Shown: in pieces, positions 2 to 9,473 of the stretch
How the letters are laid out: every line of letters begins with the position of its first letter
How positions within the stretch are numbered: position 1 is the stretch's first letter
Source of the DNA: an uncultured Verrucomicrobiota bacterium
GTDB taxonomy: Bacteria; Verrucomicrobiota; Kiritimatiellia; RFP12; UBA1067
Assembly: GCA_946631535.1 (NCBI GenBank)
Contig: CAMPAF010000101.1
Span: 1-9,473 of the forward strand
Length of the DNA: 9,473 nucleotides
Direction of reading: 5' to 3'
Made by a program: the position numbers and the translations under genes
Notes under the pieces: model-generated
What the model was told of the DNA's origin: nothing
The model's database searches: none
The model's input: the letters and a program-made list of their open reading frames with translations, nothing else

Positions 2-1321
2 GCGCCGAAGGTCGTGCAGGGAGGGTCGCGCTCCGGCGCGACCGATGCGGACGCGCAGGAGCGCGTCCCTCCCGGTGACGAGGCGTATGCGATTTCCGCC
101 GACTCTTCAGGTATCCGCATCTCTGCGCGGTCGCTTGCAGGCGTAAGGTGGGCGGCTTACACGATTCGCCAGCTTGCGATCGCGAAGCGCGGCACGTTCC
201 GCACCGAAGGGCGCATCATTCCTGCGCTCAAGGTCTCGGACCGTCCGCACCTCGCGTTCCGCGCCGTGCACCTTTGCTGGTTCCCCGAGGTGCGGCCCGC
301 GCAGATGGAGCGCGCGATACGCCTCGCGGCGCTCATGAAGTTCAACTACGCGATCATCGAGCCGTGGGGGATGTACGCGAGCGCCAAGCATCCGTGGTGG
401 CACTGGCCGAACCCGACGATGACGAAGGAGACGGTGCGCAGGCTCGCGGCGATCGGGGCTGATCTCGGCATCACGCTCATACCGCAGATCAACGCATACG
501 GGCACGCCACGTCCTCCCGCGGTTGCACGATCAAGCACGCCATGCTCGACCTGCAGCCGGAGTACGAGCCGCTCTTCGAGCCGGGCGGCTGGAACTGGTG
601 TATCTCCAATCCAGAGACGCAGCGTGTCCTGCGCGACCTGATCGCGGAGATGCACGACGACTTCGGCCGGCCGCCGTTCTTCCACCTCGGCTGCGACGAG
701 GCCCAACCGCCGTCCTGCCCGGAGTGCCGCAAGACGCCATACGCCGAGCTCGTGTGCAAGCACATCACCGGCCTCGCCGACTTCGTCAAGTCGCGTGGCG
801 CTCGCGCGATGATATGGCACGACATGCTCCTCGCGCGCGGCGATCCACGCTGGAAAGGCTATGTGCATCATGGGACCAAGACCACGGCCACGCTTGCCGA
901 CACCTTGCCGAAGGACGTGATCATCTGCGACTGGCAGTACTCCTACGGCAACATGAAGGAGGCGCGCAAGGACTGGCCCACGATGGCGTACTTCAAGGAG
1001 AAGGGCTTTCCGGTGGCGGGATGCCCATGGATGAACTTCAATGCGATGAAGCCCATGGCAGACTACATCTCAAAGATCGGCGGCTTCGGGTTCATCGAAA
1101 CGACGTGGCACCACCTGCGCGGAAGCGACTGGGTGCAGATGTACAAGTTCGCTTCTGCCGCGGCATGGGGAACCTCGGTACCTCCGCGTCCGCCGATGTA
1201 CGACACTCCGTTCGGCAATGCGCTGCGCCTGGTCGGCCACGACATGAAGCTGACGGACTACCTAGACACCGGCCATCTCAACAACCAGGTGCCACCCGGC
1301 TGGTGGGTGGACAACAACTGA
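2..1321 (+). CDS. GH20-type beta-N-acetylhexosaminidase (5' end missing)
   Basis: Predicted glycoside hydrolase of family 20, which removes terminal N-acetylglucosamine or N-acetylgalactosamine from glycans by substrate-assisted catalysis. The frame is open from base 2, so the true start is probably upstream; a GTG at 14 is the first in-window candidate. Counting from that GTG, residues 21-60 match the small alpha/beta domain that precedes the barrel in GH20 enzymes (DEAYAI, SGIRISARSLAG, then TIRQL). Residues 75-435 fit the TIM barrel, with DRPHLAFRAVHL at its start and the hallmark Asp-Glu pair in FHLGCDEAQ (D228, E229), where E would be the acid/base. A CPEC motif (235-238) follows and an aromatic-rich segment (IETTWHH, 361-367) fits the sugar-binding end. 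Residues 2-20 are encoded by a palindromic repeat and are unlikely to belong to the ancestral fold. It converges with the minus-strand operon. Substrate and localisation cannot be judged without the N-terminus. Confidence 0.82.
   Translation, partial: APKVVQGGSRSGATDADAQERVPPGDEAYAISADSSGIRISARSLAGVRWAAYTIRQLAIAKRGTFRTEGRIIPALKVSDRPHLAFRAVHLCWFPEVRPAQMERAIRLAALMKFNYAIIEPWGMYASAKHPWWHWPNPTMTKETVRRLAAIGADLGITLIPQINAYGHATSSRGCTIKHAMLDLQPEYEPLFEPGGWNWCISNPETQRVLRDLIAEMHDDFGRPPFFHLGCDEAQPPSCPECRKTPYAELVCKHITGLADFVKSRGARAMIWHDMLLARGDPRWKGYVHHGTKTTATLADTLPKDVIICDWQYSYGNMKEARKDWPTMAYFKEKGFPVAGCPWMNFNAMKPMADYISKIGGFGFIETTWHHLRGSDWVQMYKFASAAAWGTSVPPRPPMYDTPFGNALRLVGHDMKLTDYLDTGHLNNQVPPGWWVDNN
19..73. 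repeat. REP-like inverted doublet inside the GH20 gene
   Basis: Two related 25-nt units (19-43 and 49-73) lie in inverted orientation around a 5-nt spacer (44-48). The first unit and the reverse complement of the second differ at only three positions. Each unit folds on its own: GGTCGCGC (24-31), loop TCCG, GCGCGACC (36-43); and GGACGCGC (49-56), loop AGGA, GCGCGTCC (61-68). The outer arms GGGAGGG (19-25) and CCCTCCC (67-73) also pair. This is the architecture of a REP doublet. It is read in frame as a hydrophilic stretch immediately before the conserved DEAYAI segment of the GH20 protein. No second copy was found in the window. Confidence 0.8.
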
Positions 1322-1322
1322 C

Positions 1323-2150
1323 CTAGAAGGTGAAATCCACGCGAGCGAACCGCTTGTTGATGCGGTCCGCAAGAGCGGCGTCGCGGTTGTCGCGGCGCCG
1401 CTCGTCCGCAATGGACTGCGGCGGCGGGAGGTCCGGCTTCTTCGCCTGCGCGGCCATGAGCGAGATGACCTCGCTGCCGGTGATGCCTGCGATGTATCCC
1501 ATGTTCGCCGCGAGGCGTATGGGCGAGAGAAGGTCGAAAAGCTCCCAAGGCGACAGCAGGCGGGCCGACCTGAGTATGGCAAGCGCGCGCATGATCGAGT
1601 CCTCGAAGATGCGCGGCGTGTCCTCTATGAGCATCTGCCTGGCGTACAGCTCCTGCGTCACGAGGTCCTCGAACGTGCGCATCACGCGGCGGACCAGCTT
1701 GCGCTCGGACAGGCCTAGCGTGGCGTTGTTCCAGATGCGGAAGATGTGTCCGGCGTTGTGGATGCCGTCAGCATCGACGCCGTGGAAAGTCATGCGCATG
1801 GCCTCGATTCCGGCACGAACCGGCTGGAGGTCGCCGATGAGGTTCAACCCTTCGAGGTGGAACTCGGCCCACACGTGAAGGCCTGTCCCGCAATGCTCAG
1901 GGAAGGGGGAGAGGTAGCCAAACTCTGGATGCCATGCGAATACGTGCTCTGCGGCGAGCCGGCGCTCCGCGGCCTCCAGGCGCGTGTAGGCGTCGGGGAT
2001 GTCCGACGGCAGTTCCCACAGCTCCGTTATCACATGCTGGTCATCGGCGTCGAAACGGCGGCCCTGGTCGTTTCTGTATAGGCACATCGACCCGCCGGTC
2101 ACGACGTGGTTCGCCTGGAACTGGGAACTCTGGCCGCGACAGGCGCTCAT
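1323..2150 (-). CDS. McsB-like guanidino-kinase domain protein, probably catalytically dead
   Basis: 275-residue relative of protein arginine kinase McsB (phosphagen kinase fold), about 80-90 residues shorter at the N-terminus than typical McsB, so the SSRIRLARN-type ATP-site segment is absent. Recognisable blocks are FGYLSPFPEHCGTGL (77-91; family GYLTSCPTNVGTG), FHLEGL (97-102; family HLPAL), HIFRIWNNATLGLSE (135-149; family QISNQ-TLG-SE), LLSPIRLAANMGYI (207-220) and RRDNRDAAL near the C-terminus. By eye the catalytic Cys of CPTN is Phe83, the Arg after GTG is His92, RGxxGEGSEA has become HGVDADGIHNA (123-133), and NEEDH is DADDQH (34-39). A phosphoarginine-binding RDxxRA motif reads RDNRDA. 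The start at 2150 is supported by AAGGAG five nt upstream and a 4-nt ATGA overlap with mcsA; in-frame sequence further upstream lies over mcsA and is not real. The likely role is a McsA-bound pseudoenzyme or adaptor; arginine phosphorylation is doubtful. Confidence 0.82.
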   Translation of the reverse strand: MSACRGQSSQFQANHVVTGGSMCLYRNDQGRRFDADDQHVITELWELPSDIPDAYTRLEAAERRLAAEHVFAWHPEFGYLSPFPEHCGTGLHVWAEFHLEGLNLIGDLQPVRAGIEAMRMTFHGVDADGIHNAGHIFRIWNNATLGLSERKLVRRVMRTFEDLVTQELYARQMLIEDTPRIFEDSIMRALAILRSARLLSPWELFDLLSPIRLAANMGYIAGITGSEVISLMAAQAKKPDLPPPQSIADERRRDNRDAALADRINKRFARVDFTF

Positions 2151-2695
2151 TGGCTCTCCTTGTCGCCGAGGGCGTCGATCAGGCGCTTGAGTGCTGCGGC
2201 GCGCTTGAAATCCTCTCGGGCAACGGCAGACTTGAGCTCGCGTTCGAGGTAGGCGCGCGACGCCTCTCCAGTGACGTTGGGCGGCATCGAGCCAACATGC
2301 TTGGGACCATACTGGCCTGAAAGGAAGTTGGCGCGGATGTTCTTCGCGAAAGCCTTCCAGCAGTTCGGGCATCCAAGATGCCCAGAATCCTTGGCCTGTT
2401 CCCATGTCGTCTTGCAGGCTGGGCAAGTGCGTGCGTTCTGCTCGCTTTCCACGACACCTTTCATGAAGCCAAGCGTCGCCTCGACAAGATTCTTCACGAA
2501 TTCCGGCGGTTCTTCCCCATCTCCAAGCTCCAGGGCCGGCGCATCTTCACCCTTCGGCTTAAGATTAGGATCCTTCTTCTTGTGCCGGGACTTCGCAGCA
2601 CATGCCTTGCAGACGTACAGTTCGCGATCCTCGCCGTCCTTCTTCACGTGGATCACGGCCGCCGCATCGGCCTCATGGCATATTTCGCATTTCAT
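2147..2695 (-). CDS. mcsA: McsA-like zinc-finger protein with UVR motif
   Basis: 182-residue homologue of McsA, the activator and adaptor of the arginine kinase McsB in the Clp stress system of Firmicutes. The length is close to the roughly 185 residues usual there. Four CxxC pairs are present: CEIC (3-6), CKAC (29-32), CPAC (91-94) and CPNC (109-112), giving two likely zinc sites. Residues 146-178 form a UVR motif (ERELKSAVAREDFKRAAALK), a helical hairpin that mediates protein contacts. The middle is acidic and low in complexity (about 50-65). The gene starts 9 nt after rodZ without a clear Shine-Dalgarno sequence, suggesting translational reinitiation, and overlaps the mcsB-like gene by 4 nt. 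Neither ctsR nor clpC, its usual neighbours in Firmicutes, is in the window. Family assignment is strong; the function with a degenerate McsB partner is unknown. Confidence 0.88.
   Translation of the reverse strand: MKCEICHEADAAAVIHVKKDGEDRELYVCKACAAKSRHKKKDPNLKPKGEDAPALELGDGEEPPEFVKNLVEATLGFMKGVVESEQNARTCPACKTTWEQAKDSGHLGCPNCWKAFAKNIRANFLSGQYGPKHVGSMPPNVTGEASRAYLERELKSAVAREDFKRAAALKRLIDALGDKESQ
2156..2161 (-). promoter_or_regulatory. Ribosome binding site of the mcsB-like gene
   Basis: AAGGAG on the minus strand, five nt before the ATG at 2150 and inside the last codons of mcsA. It fixes the start of the shortened McsB-like protein and shows that the missing N-terminus is not a start-site error. 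Confidence 0.75.
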
Positions 2696-2704
2696 GACGG
2701 ACTG

Positions 2705-3856
2705 TTAGTCGGCGTACAGTGTCGGCACCTTCTGGCCTGTGGTACGGAGCTGCCGCTTGGCTGGCGTGGGCTGGGGTTTTGCAGTCGGCTTGGTGCCTTT
2801 GGGCTTTTTAAGGTCTCCAAGGCCTTTGGCGCTCTTAGGGTCTTTAGCGTCCTTGATGTCCTTGATGTCCTTAGAGACATTGGCTTCTCTTGTGGCGTCA
2901 ATGGCTTGTGGCTGCTGGATAGGCGTGATGCTGGTGGCGTTGTAGAGCTTGATACAACCCCAGGCAAGGATTGCAAGAAGGACGAGTGCCGTGATTGACA
3001 GGAGTGAGATGCGCCAGACGCTACGCGGGATTTCACGCACCGTCTGTATTACGCCGTGAGAGACGTTGGAGAGGCTTTTCCTGAAACGGTCGGCGGCAGA
3101 TGGCCCATCTGCGCCATATGTGGATTCGGTAGAGAGATAGGGAGAACCGGAAAAGATGTCGGCCACGTTAGTGGGCGGAGGCTGGTTGCCTGGGTTGGGC
3201 GAGGATGGAGTAACGTCATTAGTCTCCTGCGGCAGGTGTGCGGCTGGAGCCTCGAACAGCTCAAGCCCACGAACGACGGGTGGCGGCTCATGGACGGGCT
3301 CTTGGATGGTTTCTGGCATTGCCGTAACCTGTCGCTCTGGCCGAAGAGGGGCAACAGGCGGCGGCTCTGGAGACTGCTCCGGCTGAAGGGGGGCAACAGG
3401 CGGCGGCTCTGGAGTCTGCTCCGGCTGAAGGGGGGCAACAGGCGGCGGCTCTGGAGTCTGCTCCGGTTGAGGCGTGACGACAGGCATCGGTTCTTGGTTT
3501 GGTTCTGCTTCTGGCGTCGGCTTGAGCCGAGGCGTGACGACAGGAGGAGGCTCGGGCGGCGTGACAGGAGGTTGTTCATGCACTGGGACTTCCCTCGTGC
3601 GGACGATCGGGGCACGGCGTCCCTCGTAGATGTCCATGAATTCCTTTACTAGGGGTATGGGGTCCAGATCTACGCATTCGGCGTAGAGCTTGACGAACCC
3701 GCGCCCGTAGATTGGTGCTGCGATGCGGTGGAAGTCTTCGTTTTCCATCTCCTCGACGATCTGGACGAGCATTCGCGTCTTCGAGGCGATCTGCGAGGTG
3801 GTGAGGCCCTTGGCCTCGCGTGCGTTCCTGAGGGTTTCTCCGAATGAGGTATTCAT
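2705..3856 (-). CDS. rodZ: RodZ-like membrane protein with HTH domain and repeat-rich linkers
   Basis: 383-residue protein with RodZ architecture. Residues 1-75 are a Cro/CI-type helix-turn-helix domain (SFGETLRNAREAKGLTTSQIA, then APIYGRGFVKLYAECVDLD), the part that contacts MreB in RodZ. A long proline- and glutamate-rich cytoplasmic linker follows (about 91-230), containing 14-residue repeats. One membrane helix is seen at about 281-303 (SLLSITALVLLAILAWGCI). The remaining 80 residues, expected in the periplasm, are Lys/Asp and Pro rich with tripeptide repeats, and show no sign of the usual folded RodZ C-terminal domain. The ATG at 3856 was chosen because the HTH domain begins there; the in-frame sequence upstream overlaps ftsK. 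Spacing is 28 nt after ftsK and 9 nt before mcsA. Likely role: cell-shape scaffold linking MreB to the membrane. Another membrane-anchored HTH protein is possible. Confidence 0.8.
   Translation of the reverse strand: MNTSFGETLRNAREAKGLTTSQIASKTRMLVQIVEEMENEDFHRIAAPIYGRGFVKLYAECVDLDPIPLVKEFMDIYEGRRAPIVRTREVPVHEQPPVTPPEPPPVVTPRLKPTPEAEPNQEPMPVVTPQPEQTPEPPPVAPLQPEQTPEPPPVAPLQPEQSPEPPPVAPLRPERQVTAMPETIQEPVHEPPPVVRGLELFEAPAAHLPQETNDVTPSSPNPGNQPPPTNVADIFSGSPYLSTESTYGADGPSAADRFRKSLSNVSHGVIQTVREIPRSVWRISLLSITALVLLAILAWGCIKLYNATSITPIQQPQAIDATREANVSKDIKDIKDAKDPKSAKGLGDLKKPKGTKPTAKPQPTPAKRQLRTTGQKVPTLYAD
2795..2875 (-). repeat. Degenerate 9-bp tandem repeat encoding Lys-x-x tripeptides in rodZ
   Basis: On the plus strand, units resembling GTCCTTGAT recur every 9 bp (starts at about 2795, 2804, 2813, 2822, 2831, 2840, 2849, 2858 and 2867); the units at 2849 and 2858 are identical. 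In the protein they give Lys-led tripeptides (KDI, KDI, KDA, KDP, KSA and weaker copies) at about residues 328-354, in the predicted periplasmic tail. Confidence 0.8.
3351..3470 (-). repeat. 42-bp tandem repeat (about three copies) in the rodZ linker
   Basis: The string GCAACAGGCGGCGGCTCTGG starts at 3351, 3393 and 3435, exactly 42 bp apart, and the units are nearly identical across their length. Each encodes the 14-residue unit VAPLQPEQTPEPPP (about residues 130-169). A separate 16-bp direct repeat, GAGGCGTGACGACAGG, lies at 3469-3484 and 3529-3544 and encodes the two PVVTP segments. Confidence 0.92.
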
Positions 3857-6605: not shown

Positions 6606-6738
6606 CTGTGATGTTTCCTTTCATGATAAACGACGGCTTGTCGCGCAGCGCGTCCTTCATTGCGAAGTATATGACAATTGCGAGAACGAGGGCCAGAATC
6701 TTCAAGCCCAAGTTGCCATTCGAAGTGAAAAATTTCAT
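6589..6738 (-). CDS. 49-residue single-helix membrane protein, CdaR/YbbR-like N-terminus
   Basis: Short ORF of 49 codons between cdaA and ftsK. It begins at an ATG whose first bases form an ATGA overlap with the cdaA stop, preceded by a strong GGAGGT six nt upstream, and ends with TAA inside the start of ftsK (17-nt overlap). The protein has a short N-terminus, one membrane helix (NLGLKILALVLAIVIYF, 9-25), then a charged tail of 24 residues. The helix and its lead-in resemble the N-terminal membrane segment of CdaR (YbbR), the membrane regulator of the c-di-AMP cyclase CdaA, and the position directly after cdaA is that of cdaR in many genomes. The YbbR repeat domains are absent. It may be a minimal CdaR that contacts CdaA in the membrane, or a remnant kept for translational coupling to ftsK. 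Translation looks likely; the CdaR link is an inference. Confidence 0.72.
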   Translation of the reverse strand: MKFFTSNGNLGLKILALVLAIVIYFAMKDALRDKPSFIMKGNITDEAAR

Positions 6739-7649
6739 GTTGTGACCTCCTCGGTCTTGCGTGCTTCCTCGGCCTGCTGGGCCGGCGGCACGGGTTTCCC
6801 GAAAATGCGCGGATGCTTCTCCCGGCGTCGCCGAAGCCAGTCGGCGAAAGCTTCTGCGGTGGTCTTCTGCTGCGGCATCGCCTTGCGCACCCAGCGGAGG
6901 ATTGCGGTGCGCGAGACATCGCCCACGTCAGAGTAGCGGATCAGCTTGCCGTTGTGCGCCACGGATATGCGTCCTGTCTCCTCGGAGACGACGAGCACGA
7001 GGGCGTCGGTTTCCTCGCTGAGGCCGACTGCCGCGCGATGACGCATGCCAGACATTGAGAGGTCGCTCAAGCTGGAGACGGGGAAGAGGCAGTGCGCGGC
7101 AGCGATCCGGCCGTGGCGCATGATGACTCCTCCGTCGTGGAGCGGCATCGGCTCGGTGAAAATCGCGAAGAAGAGCTCGGGCGAGACTAGCGCGTCGAGG
7201 GAGACGCCGGTAGCCTCGTAGCCGCGGAGCGAGATGCCGCGCTCGAAGGCGATGAGCGCGCCCGTCTTCGACTTTGCCAGCTTGATGACGATGGAGACGA
7301 TCTCTTCCGGCGTCGTGCGCGATCCTAATCCTTGCGCTCGATGGCGGTCTGAGAGGAACGAGCCCATCGTGGCGAGAGCACGCCTGATTTCAGGCTGGAA
7401 GATGACGACGCTTGACATTGCAAGGTAGATGAGCAGCCAGCGCACTACGGCGGAAAGCACCTTGAAGTCGAACAGCTGCGTGAACGCTATCAGTAGCGCG
7501 AAGAGGATTGCGATTCCCATGAGCAGCTGGCCAAAGCGCGAACCACGCGCCGCCTTCAGGATGGCGTATATGACCACGTACAGGATAAGTATCTGAACGG
7601 CGTCGGGAAGGTAGGTGACGACGGTGGTGATTATGTCGTGCATGTTCAT
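6735..7649 (-). CDS. cdaA: Diadenylate cyclase CdaA (c-di-AMP synthase)
   Basis: 304-residue membrane enzyme that condenses two ATP into cyclic di-AMP, a messenger controlling potassium, osmotic balance and wall homeostasis. Three membrane helices lie at about 16-33, 41-58 and 65-84, followed by the DisA_N cyclase domain (about 105-255). Motifs are GALIAFERG (130-138), PLHDGGVIM (169-177) and GMRHRAAVG (201-209), then VSEETGRISVAHNGKL (221-236). The usual DGA motif reads DGG here, a conservative change; the RHR motif is intact. A basic, then Glu-rich tail of about 50 residues follows the domain. The ATG at 7649 is preceded by AAAGGAG with a 7-nt spacer and overlaps the folP stop as ATGA; a second ATG two codons later is less well placed. 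Its neighbours ftsH and folP upstream and a CdaR-like peptide downstream match the known cdaA neighbourhood. Confidence 0.95.
   Translation of the reverse strand: MNMHDIITTVVTYLPDAVQILILYVVIYAILKAARGSRFGQLLMGIAILFALLIAFTQLFDFKVLSAVVRWLLIYLAMSSVVIFQPEIRRALATMGSFLSDRHRAQGLGSRTTPEEIVSIVIKLAKSKTGALIAFERGISLRGYEATGVSLDALVSPELFFAIFTEPMPLHDGGVIMRHGRIAAAHCLFPVSSLSDLSMSGMRHRAAVGLSEETDALVLVVSEETGRISVAHNGKLIRYSDVGDVSRTAILRWVRKAMPQQKTTAEAFADWLRRRREKHPRIFGKPVPPAQQAEEARKTEEVTT
6745..6750 (-). promoter_or_regulatory. Ribosome binding site of the 49-codon ORF
   Basis: A perfect GGAGGT on the minus strand, six nt before the ATG at 6738, within the last codons of cdaA. It is the main evidence that the small ORF is translated. 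Confidence 0.75.
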
Positions 7650-8467
7650 GCCACGTCTCCTTTCGCGAGCGCCTCCACGACCTTGAGCGCCTGCAATGTT
7701 TCCTTGACGTCGTGGACGCGGACGACGCTAGCGCCGTTCATCGCGCACCACACCGCCGCGCCGACGCTGCCGCCGAGCCTGTCGTGCGGATCCTCCGCGC
7801 CCGTGAGCGCCCCGACAATCCTCTTGCGCGAGACGCCCACCAGCACCGGCGCCCTCTGCGCCAAGCGGCGGATGCCTCTCAGGAGCGCCAAGTCCTCCTC
7901 GCGCGTCGTGCCGAAGCCGATCATGGGGTCGATGATGATTTGCGATTTTAGGATTGAAGATTGGGGGATTGTGGGATTGGAGGATTGTGAGATTGTGGGA
8001 TTGGCGCTGTCGGCGGCCGGCGGTCGATTGTCGAAGATGATGCTGGCAGGGAGCACGAGGCCGCAGCTGGTCTTGCCCGCGAGCTCGAGCATGGCAGGAA
8101 CGGACTTCGCGTAGACGCAGTTGAGTATGGCGGCACCGAGGCAAAGCGCGCGCTCGGCGGTCTCTGGGTGGTACGTGTCGATGGAGATCGGCATGGTCGG
8201 CATCTCGCGCGCGAGGACGCGAAGCACCGGCTCGAGGCGCGCCCACTCGGCCTGCCAGGAGATAGGCGTCGCGCCTGGGCGCGTGGACTCCGCGCCGAGG
8301 TCTATGATGTCGGCGCCCTCCTGCGCAAGTGCGCGCGCGCGCGAAACAGCCGCCTCTGTGCGCAGGCAACGCACTCCGTCCGAGAAGGAGTCGGGCGTGA
8401 TGTTGACGATTCCCATGACGCGCGTCCGGGAAAGGTCGATCTCAAACTGTCGGCATGTCCAGGTCAC
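7646..8467 (-). CDS. folP: Dihydropteroate synthase with a repeat insert
   Basis: Dihydropteroate synthase joins p-aminobenzoate to 6-hydroxymethyl-dihydropterin diphosphate in folate synthesis. From the GTG at 8467 it has 273 residues. Both family signatures are present: VMGIVNITPDSFSDG (17-31) and DIIDLGAESTRPGA (53-66). Also seen are SIDT (95-98), Asn116 in ILN, IIIDPMIGFG (177-186, the pterin Asp), GVSRKR (211-216, catalytic Lys) and RVHDV (250-254). Two departures stand out: the INDxS Asp is Cys (ILNCVYA), and the HMxGxPxxM segment with the following helix is missing, replaced by LPASIIFDN and a low-complexity stretch (155-176) encoded by an 8-bp repeat array. The GTG at 8467 gives a GTGA overlap with the ftsH stop and an N-terminus of usual length; a GTG at 8476 is the alternative. 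Activity is plausible but uncertain. Confidence 0.9.
   Translation of the reverse strand: MTWTCRQFEIDLSRTRVMGIVNITPDSFSDGVRCLRTEAAVSRARALAQEGADIIDLGAESTRPGATPISWQAEWARLEPVLRVLAREMPTMPISIDTYHPETAERALCLGAAILNCVYAKSVPAMLELAGKTSCGLVLPASIIFDNRPPAADSANPTISQSSNPTIPQSSILKSQIIIDPMIGFGTTREEDLALLRGIRRLAQRAPVLVGVSRKRIVGALTGAEDPHDRLGGSVGAAVWCAMNGASVVRVHDVKETLQALKVVEALAKGDVA
7657..7663 (-). promoter_or_regulatory. Ribosome binding site of cdaA
   Basis: AAAGGAG on the minus strand with a 7-nt spacer to the ATG at 7649. It favours this ATG over the in-frame ATG at 7643. Confidence 0.7.
7944..8006. repeat. Octanucleotide tandem repeat inside folP
   Basis: GATTG cores on the plus strand start at 7952, 7959, 7967, 7975, 7983, 7991 and 7999, with a weaker GATTT at 7944; spacing is 8 bp apart from one 7-bp step. 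In the folP direction the unit is CAATCCCA with variants. It is poorer in G and C than its surroundings. Because 8 is not a multiple of 3, the frame rotates through the array and gives an 8-residue protein period (SANPTISQ, SSNPTIPQ) at residues 155-175. Confidence 0.9.
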
Positions 8468-9473
8468 TCTTGGCACTTCGCTTCTTCTGGGCTATTCGTT
8501 TCCAGCTCTTCATTCTTCTCCGCCAGCTCTTCGCTCTTCCCGAGGCCGAGGAGATTCTCTACGTCGCGGCCGTCCATCGTCTCTTTCTCGAGAAGCGTGG
8601 TGGCGAGGAGCTCGAGCTTGTCGCGGTTGTCGTTCAGGAGCTTCGTGGCGCGGTCGTATGCGGAGGATATGAGCTCCTGCACCTCGGCATCGATGGCCTC
8701 GGCCGTCTTCGAGGAATACGGCGGCGGGGCCTCCTCCGCGGCGAACTGGTTGGGCTCTATGAACGCCTGGAAGCCGAACGTCTTGCTCATGCCGTAGCGG
8801 CACACCATTGCGCGTGCGATGTCGGTGGCGACCGCTATGTCGGAGGCGGCGCCCGTGGAAATGTCGTGCGTGTGCATCTCCTCGGCGATGCGGCCGCCGC
8901 AGAGGACCGCCAGCTCGTCGAGGAAGTAGGTGCGCGAACGGTTGAGGACGTCCTTCTCGGGGAGGGTCATCGTCACGCCAAGCGCGCGTCCGCGCGGGAT
9001 GATGGAGACCTTGTGCAGCGGGTCGGCGTTCTCCACGAGCAGCTGGAGCAGCGCGTGGCCCGCCTCGTGCCATGCGGTGGTCTCGTATTCCTTGCGGGTG
9101 AAGCCGGCGCTCTTGCGCTCGCGGCCCCAGAACACCTTGTCGCGCGCCTCCTCGAGGATGGCGTGCGGAATCTCGGTCATGCCGTTGCGCGCGGCGAGGA
9201 GCGCGGCCTCGTTGATGATGTTGGCGAGGTCGGCGCCGGAATGGCCGGAGGTGCCGCGCGCGAGGCGGGAGAGGTCGGCGTCGGGGGCGAGCTTCACCTT
9301 GGAGGCGTGCAGCTTGAGTATCTCCTCGCGGCCCTTGAGCGTGGGCAGGTCGACGTGCACCTGGCGGTCGAAGCGTCCAGGGCGGAGGAGCGCGGGGTCG
9401 AGGATGTCCGGGCGGTTGGTGGCGGCGATCACGATCACGCCGTCGTTCGTGCCGAAGCCGTCCATCTCCACGA
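8464..9473 (-). CDS. ftsH: ATP-dependent zinc metalloprotease FtsH (N-terminal part outside window)
   Basis: C-terminal 336 residues or so of the membrane-anchored AAA+ protease that degrades unassembled or damaged membrane proteins. The frame is open to the right edge; the first codons read VEMDGF, the end of the Walker B region, so the two membrane helices and Walker A lie outside. Numbering from that Val, the visible parts are the second region of homology ([21 protein letters not shown], 16-36) with its arginine fingers, the AAA lid ([19 protein letters not shown]), the zinc site HEAGH (135-139), and the third zinc ligand Asp211 in [12 protein letters not shown]. The C-terminal 40 residues are Glu-rich and variable, as is common. 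The catalytic core is complete. The stop overlaps the folP start. As the first gene seen here, it probably shares its promoter with the rest of the operon. Confidence 0.97.

Follow-up and report, generated by a model that had tools for sequence, protein, structure and literature searches.

A maintained, kinase-dead McsB homologue paired with McsA in a Kiritimatiellia bacterium, and its possible role as a tag-free ClpC adaptor

The mcsA-mcsB' locus and the catalytic residues

The stretch of DNA analysed here (the window) comprises positions 1 to 9,473 of contig CAMPAF010000101.1, all 9,473 nucleotides on the forward strand, from an uncultured Verrucomicrobiota bacterium of the Kiritimatiellia (assembly GCA_946631535.1). 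Its minus strand carries ftsH (partial), folP, cdaA, ftsK, a rodZ-like helix-turn-helix gene, mcsA, and a short homologue of the gene for the protein arginine kinase McsB, here called mcsB'. The loss of the kinase residues from McsB' and the conservation of its gene are strongly supported, and mcsB' is almost certainly both kinase-dead and maintained. The features of the gene pair are as follows.

1323-2150, minus strand: mcsB', kinase-dead short McsB homologue of 275 amino acids (open reading frame 1326-2150, stop TAG 1323-1325)
2147-2150, minus strand: ATGA overlap of the mcsB' start and the mcsA stop, read from the sequence
2155-2160, minus strand: AGGAGA, Shine-Dalgarno-like, 4 nucleotides upstream of the mcsB' ATG, read from the sequence
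2147-2695, minus strand: mcsA, 182 amino acids, with two zinc sites, each with both CxxC pairs

The mcsB' reading frame has no internal stops, and the clean frame, good Shine-Dalgarno sequence and ATGA overlap with mcsA reported by a first-pass annotation are all confirmed by the sequence. A gene for the McsA activator is thus directly adjacent; its product scores 57.6 bits against NF053706, under the cut-off of 210.

The profile search of the ATP:guanido phosphotransferase families proposed in that annotation places McsB' among them: PF00217 scores 63.2 bits against a cut-off of 22.4, with only residues 49-167 aligned, on model positions 82-200. The NCBIfam McsB equivalogs score far below their cut-offs (94.6 against 500 bits, and 118.5 against 385). 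Both the homology and the fold of this superfamily are present in McsB'. In the predicted model, residues 12-272 superpose on McsB 20-353, and the first strand of the catalytic domain is retained, reading GGSMCLYRN for SSRIRLARN, minus two phosphate-binding arginines. The missing stretch is internal. A late-starting or truncated gene is ruled out by the model alignment, and the earlier view that the protein begins about 85 residues late does not hold.

Eight positions were taken as the catalytic set: the two N-terminal arginines, the second Glu of NEEDH, the Arg of HLR, the Cys, R176, R207 and E212. None of the eight is present in the window protein, in which both N-terminal arginines, the HLR Arg, the Cys, R176 and R207 have all been substituted. 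The phmmer alignment to the solved McsB structure 6fh1 sets F83 at the place of the catalytic Cys, H92 at the Arg of GTGLR, and H123 and D128 at the first Arg (R207) and the first Glu (E212) of RGxxGEGSEA. It thus bears out the replacements of the Cys, the Arg after GTG, the RGxxGEGSEA loop and NEEDH that had been proposed by eye; an alignment with the catalytic Cys, Arg and Glu in place would have spoken against a dead kinase, and all are replaced. D37 was considered as the counterpart of the NEEDH Glu and was not used, the alignment being unsure there.

2070-2117, minus strand: residues 12-27, retained first strand; S21 and C23 replace the two phosphate-binding arginines and R26 is kept
1902-1904, minus strand: F83, at the place of catalytic Cys167 (alignment)
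1890-1895, minus strand: H86-C87 of the PxHCG motif (family alignment)
1875-1877, minus strand: H92, at the place of Arg176 (alignment)
1767-1769, minus strand: D128, at the place of catalytic Glu212 (alignment)
1380-1394, minus strand: R253-D254-N255-R256-D257, with R256-D257 aligned to the phosphoarginine (pArg) receptor residues R337/D338 and R253-D254 as an alternative register

Published descriptions agree with most of this choice of residues. The active-site residues R29, R31, E122, R126, C168 and E213 named in PMC12387690 correspond to six of the set, the catalytic C167 is named in PMC7235348, and the pArg receptor residues R337/D338 in PMC8370763.

A conserved family and its history

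A homologue search matched 215 proteins, and motifs were counted in the 120 matches listed. All 120, which are 256-296 amino acids long, carry PxHCG, and none carries the canonical Cys motif, EEDH or GE[GH][ST]E; RDxRD[AS] is found in 119. Kiritimatiellia is the source name of two.

Relative to three related loci (L001, L002 and L003), the ratio of nonsynonymous to synonymous substitution rates (dN/dS) was 0.042, 0.072 and 0.133 for mcsB' and 0.077, 0.078 and 0.143 for mcsA. For comparison, the L001 and L002 pairs gave 0.071 and 0.072 for ftsK, 0.098 and 0.102 for cdaA, and 0.202 and 0.190 for folP; these three genes were not found in L003. The mcsB' gene is under purifying selection and, with its kinase fold kept and its catalytic residues lost, encodes a pseudokinase. 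Genome-wide statements refer to the relatives' genomes, which are draft assemblies. Each of three relatives (G001-G003) has one PF00217 locus, so no second McsB was found in these genomes. Together with the low dN/dS and the conserved family, this upholds the first-pass description of an intact, maintained, dead McsB coupled to mcsA. Across the GTDB family, 103 of the 105 genomes with an A1 match have a single one; the match spans two contigs in G516 and two pieces of one contig in G525.

Within this one family, 99 loci were classified on the eight residues: 13 with all eight, termed live because the residues are present in the sequence, 22 of the short McsB' type, 50 fusions of McsA to a McsB C-terminal part, and 14 other dead loci. 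The full catalytic set is thus missing from 86 of the 99. Six genomes of the family in which a match was seen (G525, G526, G542, G543, G553 and G567) fall outside the classification. Sixty-one alignment columns are conserved in 90% or more of 55 live rows. In 34 short rows, 25 of these columns are kept at that same level, 9 are deleted, and the other 27, among them the catalytic Arg, His and Cys, are lost.

In a quick tree of 167 rows and 188 C-terminal columns, whose long branches leave its details unsure, a single clade (Shimodaira-Hasegawa-like approximate likelihood ratio test 93) unites all 22 short rows, made up of the window protein and 21 loci, with 47 of the 48 fusion rows and four rows of other dead forms. 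The 13 live rows of the same family form a separate clade (support 88), and the tree requires a minimum of four changes between live and dead. Three full-length dead proteins (L044, L112 and L114) group with the fusions, and L113 with the short rows (84 each). This placement reads as a history in which loss of the kinase came first and two routes of shrinking followed. The fusions are without the PxHCG region, yet they retain their linkage to clpC.

Several related forms were also seen. L126 (G574), a natural McsA-McsB fusion of 523 amino acids with clpC behind it, has the complete set of eight catalytic residues; L082 (G255), from the phylum sample, is a fusion of 566 amino acids with two of the eight. 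L083, L084, L088, L090 and L092-L096 make up a further full-length dead McsB lineage, 364-382 amino acids long where the start is clear, in which LTAQ- or LTSQ-like motifs replace the Cys motif. No description of a natural kinase-dead McsB or of a McsA-McsB fusion was found in the titles and abstract openings of the papers that searches of open-licence PubMed Central listed.

At the level of the phylum, about 70 of 364 matches (a hand count) are weak, with E above 1e-45, and all 30 loci taken from these weak scorers have at most four of the eight residues. For this reason, annotations as 'protein arginine kinase' in the phylum are unsafe.

ClpC and the interpretation of McsB'

Among loci with room for a neighbour, clpC is next on the same strand in 17 of 21 short loci, 46 of 49 fusions, 9 of 13 other dead loci and 8 of 11 live loci, and thus in 72 of 83 dead-type loci. 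A ClpC query matched in all 79 genomes searched, although its matches may include ClpB-like proteins, and the Walker residues and GF loop are present in all 17 short-type ClpC rows read at full length. McsA next to the short type was confirmed by its CxxC pairs in L037-L043, the loci checked. In the window, a convergent GH20-like glycosidase gene (2-1321, plus strand) lies in the place that clpC has in most short-type relatives.

All 22 short-type genomes (23 of 23 rows) keep both pArg-pocket residues of ClpC, E32 and E106 (PMC12583610). So do 45 of the 46 live rows; L049, the one that does not, is a split frame. Both are kept in 16 of 22 other dead rows and in 5 of 46 fusion rows, and E32 by itself in all 46 fusion rows. 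R9 anchors the resting state of Staphylococcus aureus ClpC, with E435 as its partner (PMC12583610). Arg stands at this position in 45 of the 46 live rows and 11 of the 22 rows of other dead forms; neither the 23 short nor the 46 fusion rows have it.

Low-molecular-weight phosphatases carry Thr at the fifth P-loop position in the pArg type and Ile in the pTyr type (PMC8001253). Members of the family PF01451 turned up in 66 of the 79 genomes, and a Thr-type (YwlE-type) P-loop in 6 of 13 live genomes. The 51 dead-type genomes that were read, comprising 19 of the 22 short, 23 of the 30 fusion and 9 of the 14 other dead ones, showed no such P-loop, and all 19 of the short type have CHGNICRS. As 7 of the 13 live genomes also showed no Thr-type P-loop, this test for an eraser is weak and one-sided; 8 of the 78 PF01451 matches were left unread, 7 of them from dead-type genomes.

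Together, these observations suggest an adaptor that works without tagging, since the active site of the pArg writer is gone and no pArg eraser was seen, while McsA and ClpC remain and the two partners are fused in a sister clade. The best explanation, favoured by a modest degree, is that McsA and McsB' form a pArg-independent ClpC adaptor. On this reading McsB' is a pseudokinase derived from McsB that has given up the residues for ATP-phosphate binding and phosphotransfer while its scaffold and C-terminal domain persist. Together with McsA, it may form a stoichiometric adaptor and activator that passes substrates to ClpC, and then to ClpCP. The N-terminal pockets of ClpC, which read pArg in other bacteria, would owe their retention in this lineage to docking of the adaptor, or of another ligand, and the loss of R9 may reflect a less locked ClpC that starts without pArg. 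Complex formation, docking and the hand-over of substrates are inferred. The suggestion of the first-pass annotation that McsB' serves as an adaptor for Clp accordingly gains from the clpC adjacency in relatives, the intact ClpC and the fusions beside clpC, a support that is indirect.

A precedent is the laboratory mutant McsB-C167S of Bacillus subtilis, which is dead as a kinase and still acts in part as an adaptor for MgsR, perhaps serving ClpX (PMC7235348); this is a single laboratory change, whereas McsB' is a natural lineage altered at many positions. From the McsB arginine kinases of B. subtilis, Geobacillus stearothermophilus and S. aureus, McsB' differs by replacement of the catalytic Cys, the five arginines of the set and most of NEEDH, by its missing internal stretch and by the new PxHCG motif. 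In mode of working, its proposed docking on ClpC without phosphorylation resembles that of MecA-type adaptors, of which MecA binds both ClpC pArg sites (PMC12583610), but McsB' is kinase-derived and paired with McsA. Chlamydia McsAB (CT675) likewise has an mcsAB operon apart from clpC and, unlike McsB', is described as a putative arginine kinase (PMC10128030, PMC5177608).

Several points weigh against a pArg-independent adaptor. In B. subtilis, ClpC stimulation requires the kinase (PMC5506225). The short loci nearest in kinship to the window (in G001, G002, G003 and G515) have clpC elsewhere, and in the window it is the convergent gene, not clpC, that lies downstream of mcsB'. The kept ClpC pockets equally fit continued pArg reading, and the GTEH motif may in part have a structural role in Clp N-terminal domains. 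As other dead lineages keep E106 in 16 of 22 rows, loss of the pocket does not simply follow loss of the kinase. The argument from R9 is weakened because the E435 position is His in all five live full-length rows, so that the anchor may differ in this phylum.

The main rival holds that an unknown other kinase makes pArg, and that McsB' binds pArg proteins at its RD site and hands them to ClpC. It has this standing because neither the two ClpC pockets nor the RD site has been lost, and because pArg is reported from Mycobacterium smegmatis, although no mycobacterial McsB is known according to the cited passage (PMC9604228). Of 37 short rows, 35 keep the RD aligned with R337/D338, against 1 of 42 other dead rows (L086), in line with the near-universal RDxRD[AS] among the homologues listed. 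The retained RD and the conserved Asp at the place of E212 bear likewise on the first-pass suggestion of a reader of guanidino ligands, which McsB' may be. Yet R341 of the RDxxRA motif is Leu in the window protein, the RD has two possible registers, and the absence of a Thr-type P-loop from the short-type genomes read also speaks against this rival, with the reservation noted for the live genomes. On these grounds this reading is unlikely.

It is less probable still that McsB' controls its partner without delivery to Clp, either by only stabilizing or titrating McsA or by acting in the ftsK-cdaA-folP neighbourhood. The operon neighbours in the window (rodZ-like, ftsK, cdaA, folP and ftsH), with clpC out of view, would suit such a role, but the same-strand clpC at most short-type loci does not, nor do the sister-clade fusions of McsA with what is left of McsB, which lie next to clpC. 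A new catalytic, metal or redox site, formed by the His-Cys pair of PxHCG near the former active site and the conserved D128, is improbable. Across 38 aligned family proteins H86, C87, H98, D107 and H135 do not vary, and PxHCG is universal among the homologues listed; however, H86 is kept in just 79% of a wider set of 34 short rows (L043 reads PSFCG), the divergent L113 reads PEHIGCG, and the fusions keep their clpC linkage without this region.

Residual arginine kinase activity through altered residues is very improbable: Asp stands in place of Glu212 in 94% of 34 short rows, but the other substitutions in the window protein leave it without both N-terminal arginines, the HLR Arg, the Cys, R176 and R207. 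That an unneeded gene is simply decaying is equally hard to credit, for although 3 of 22 short-type genomes have one stop within the matched stretch (G003, G087 and G576), of which only the in-frame TAG of G087 (L042) cuts the frame well inside, leaving 151 amino acids through assembly error or decay, the new motifs are conserved, and neither a dN/dS near 1 nor frequent frameshifts were seen in the pairs and loci examined.

Returning to the tag-free adaptor, a broader history is evenly poised: the group may have dropped pArg tagging and rebuilt McsA-McsB-ClpC as a degradation adaptor, with a full-length dead kinase giving rise either to the short McsB' or to a single McsA::McsB fusion some 300 residues long, and ClpC co-changing at the pArg pockets in the fusions and at R9 in both types. 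What McsB does as a kinase in B. subtilis is difficult to separate from what it does as an adaptor (PMC5506225); evolution may have split them here, as the many family loci without the catalytic set suggest. If McsB' is indeed an adaptor, these proteins display the McsAB-ClpC delivery unit in its minimal form, and show that a degradation system built on phosphorylation can lose its chemistry and yet survive.

Other features of the window

Two further features lie upstream of the gene pair. A 42-base tandem repeat of 3.3 copies (3334-3470) encodes proline-rich repeats of the rodZ-like protein. The folP and cdaA (diadenylate cyclase) genes overlap (6735-8476, minus strand), upstream of ftsK-rodZ-mcsA-mcsB'.
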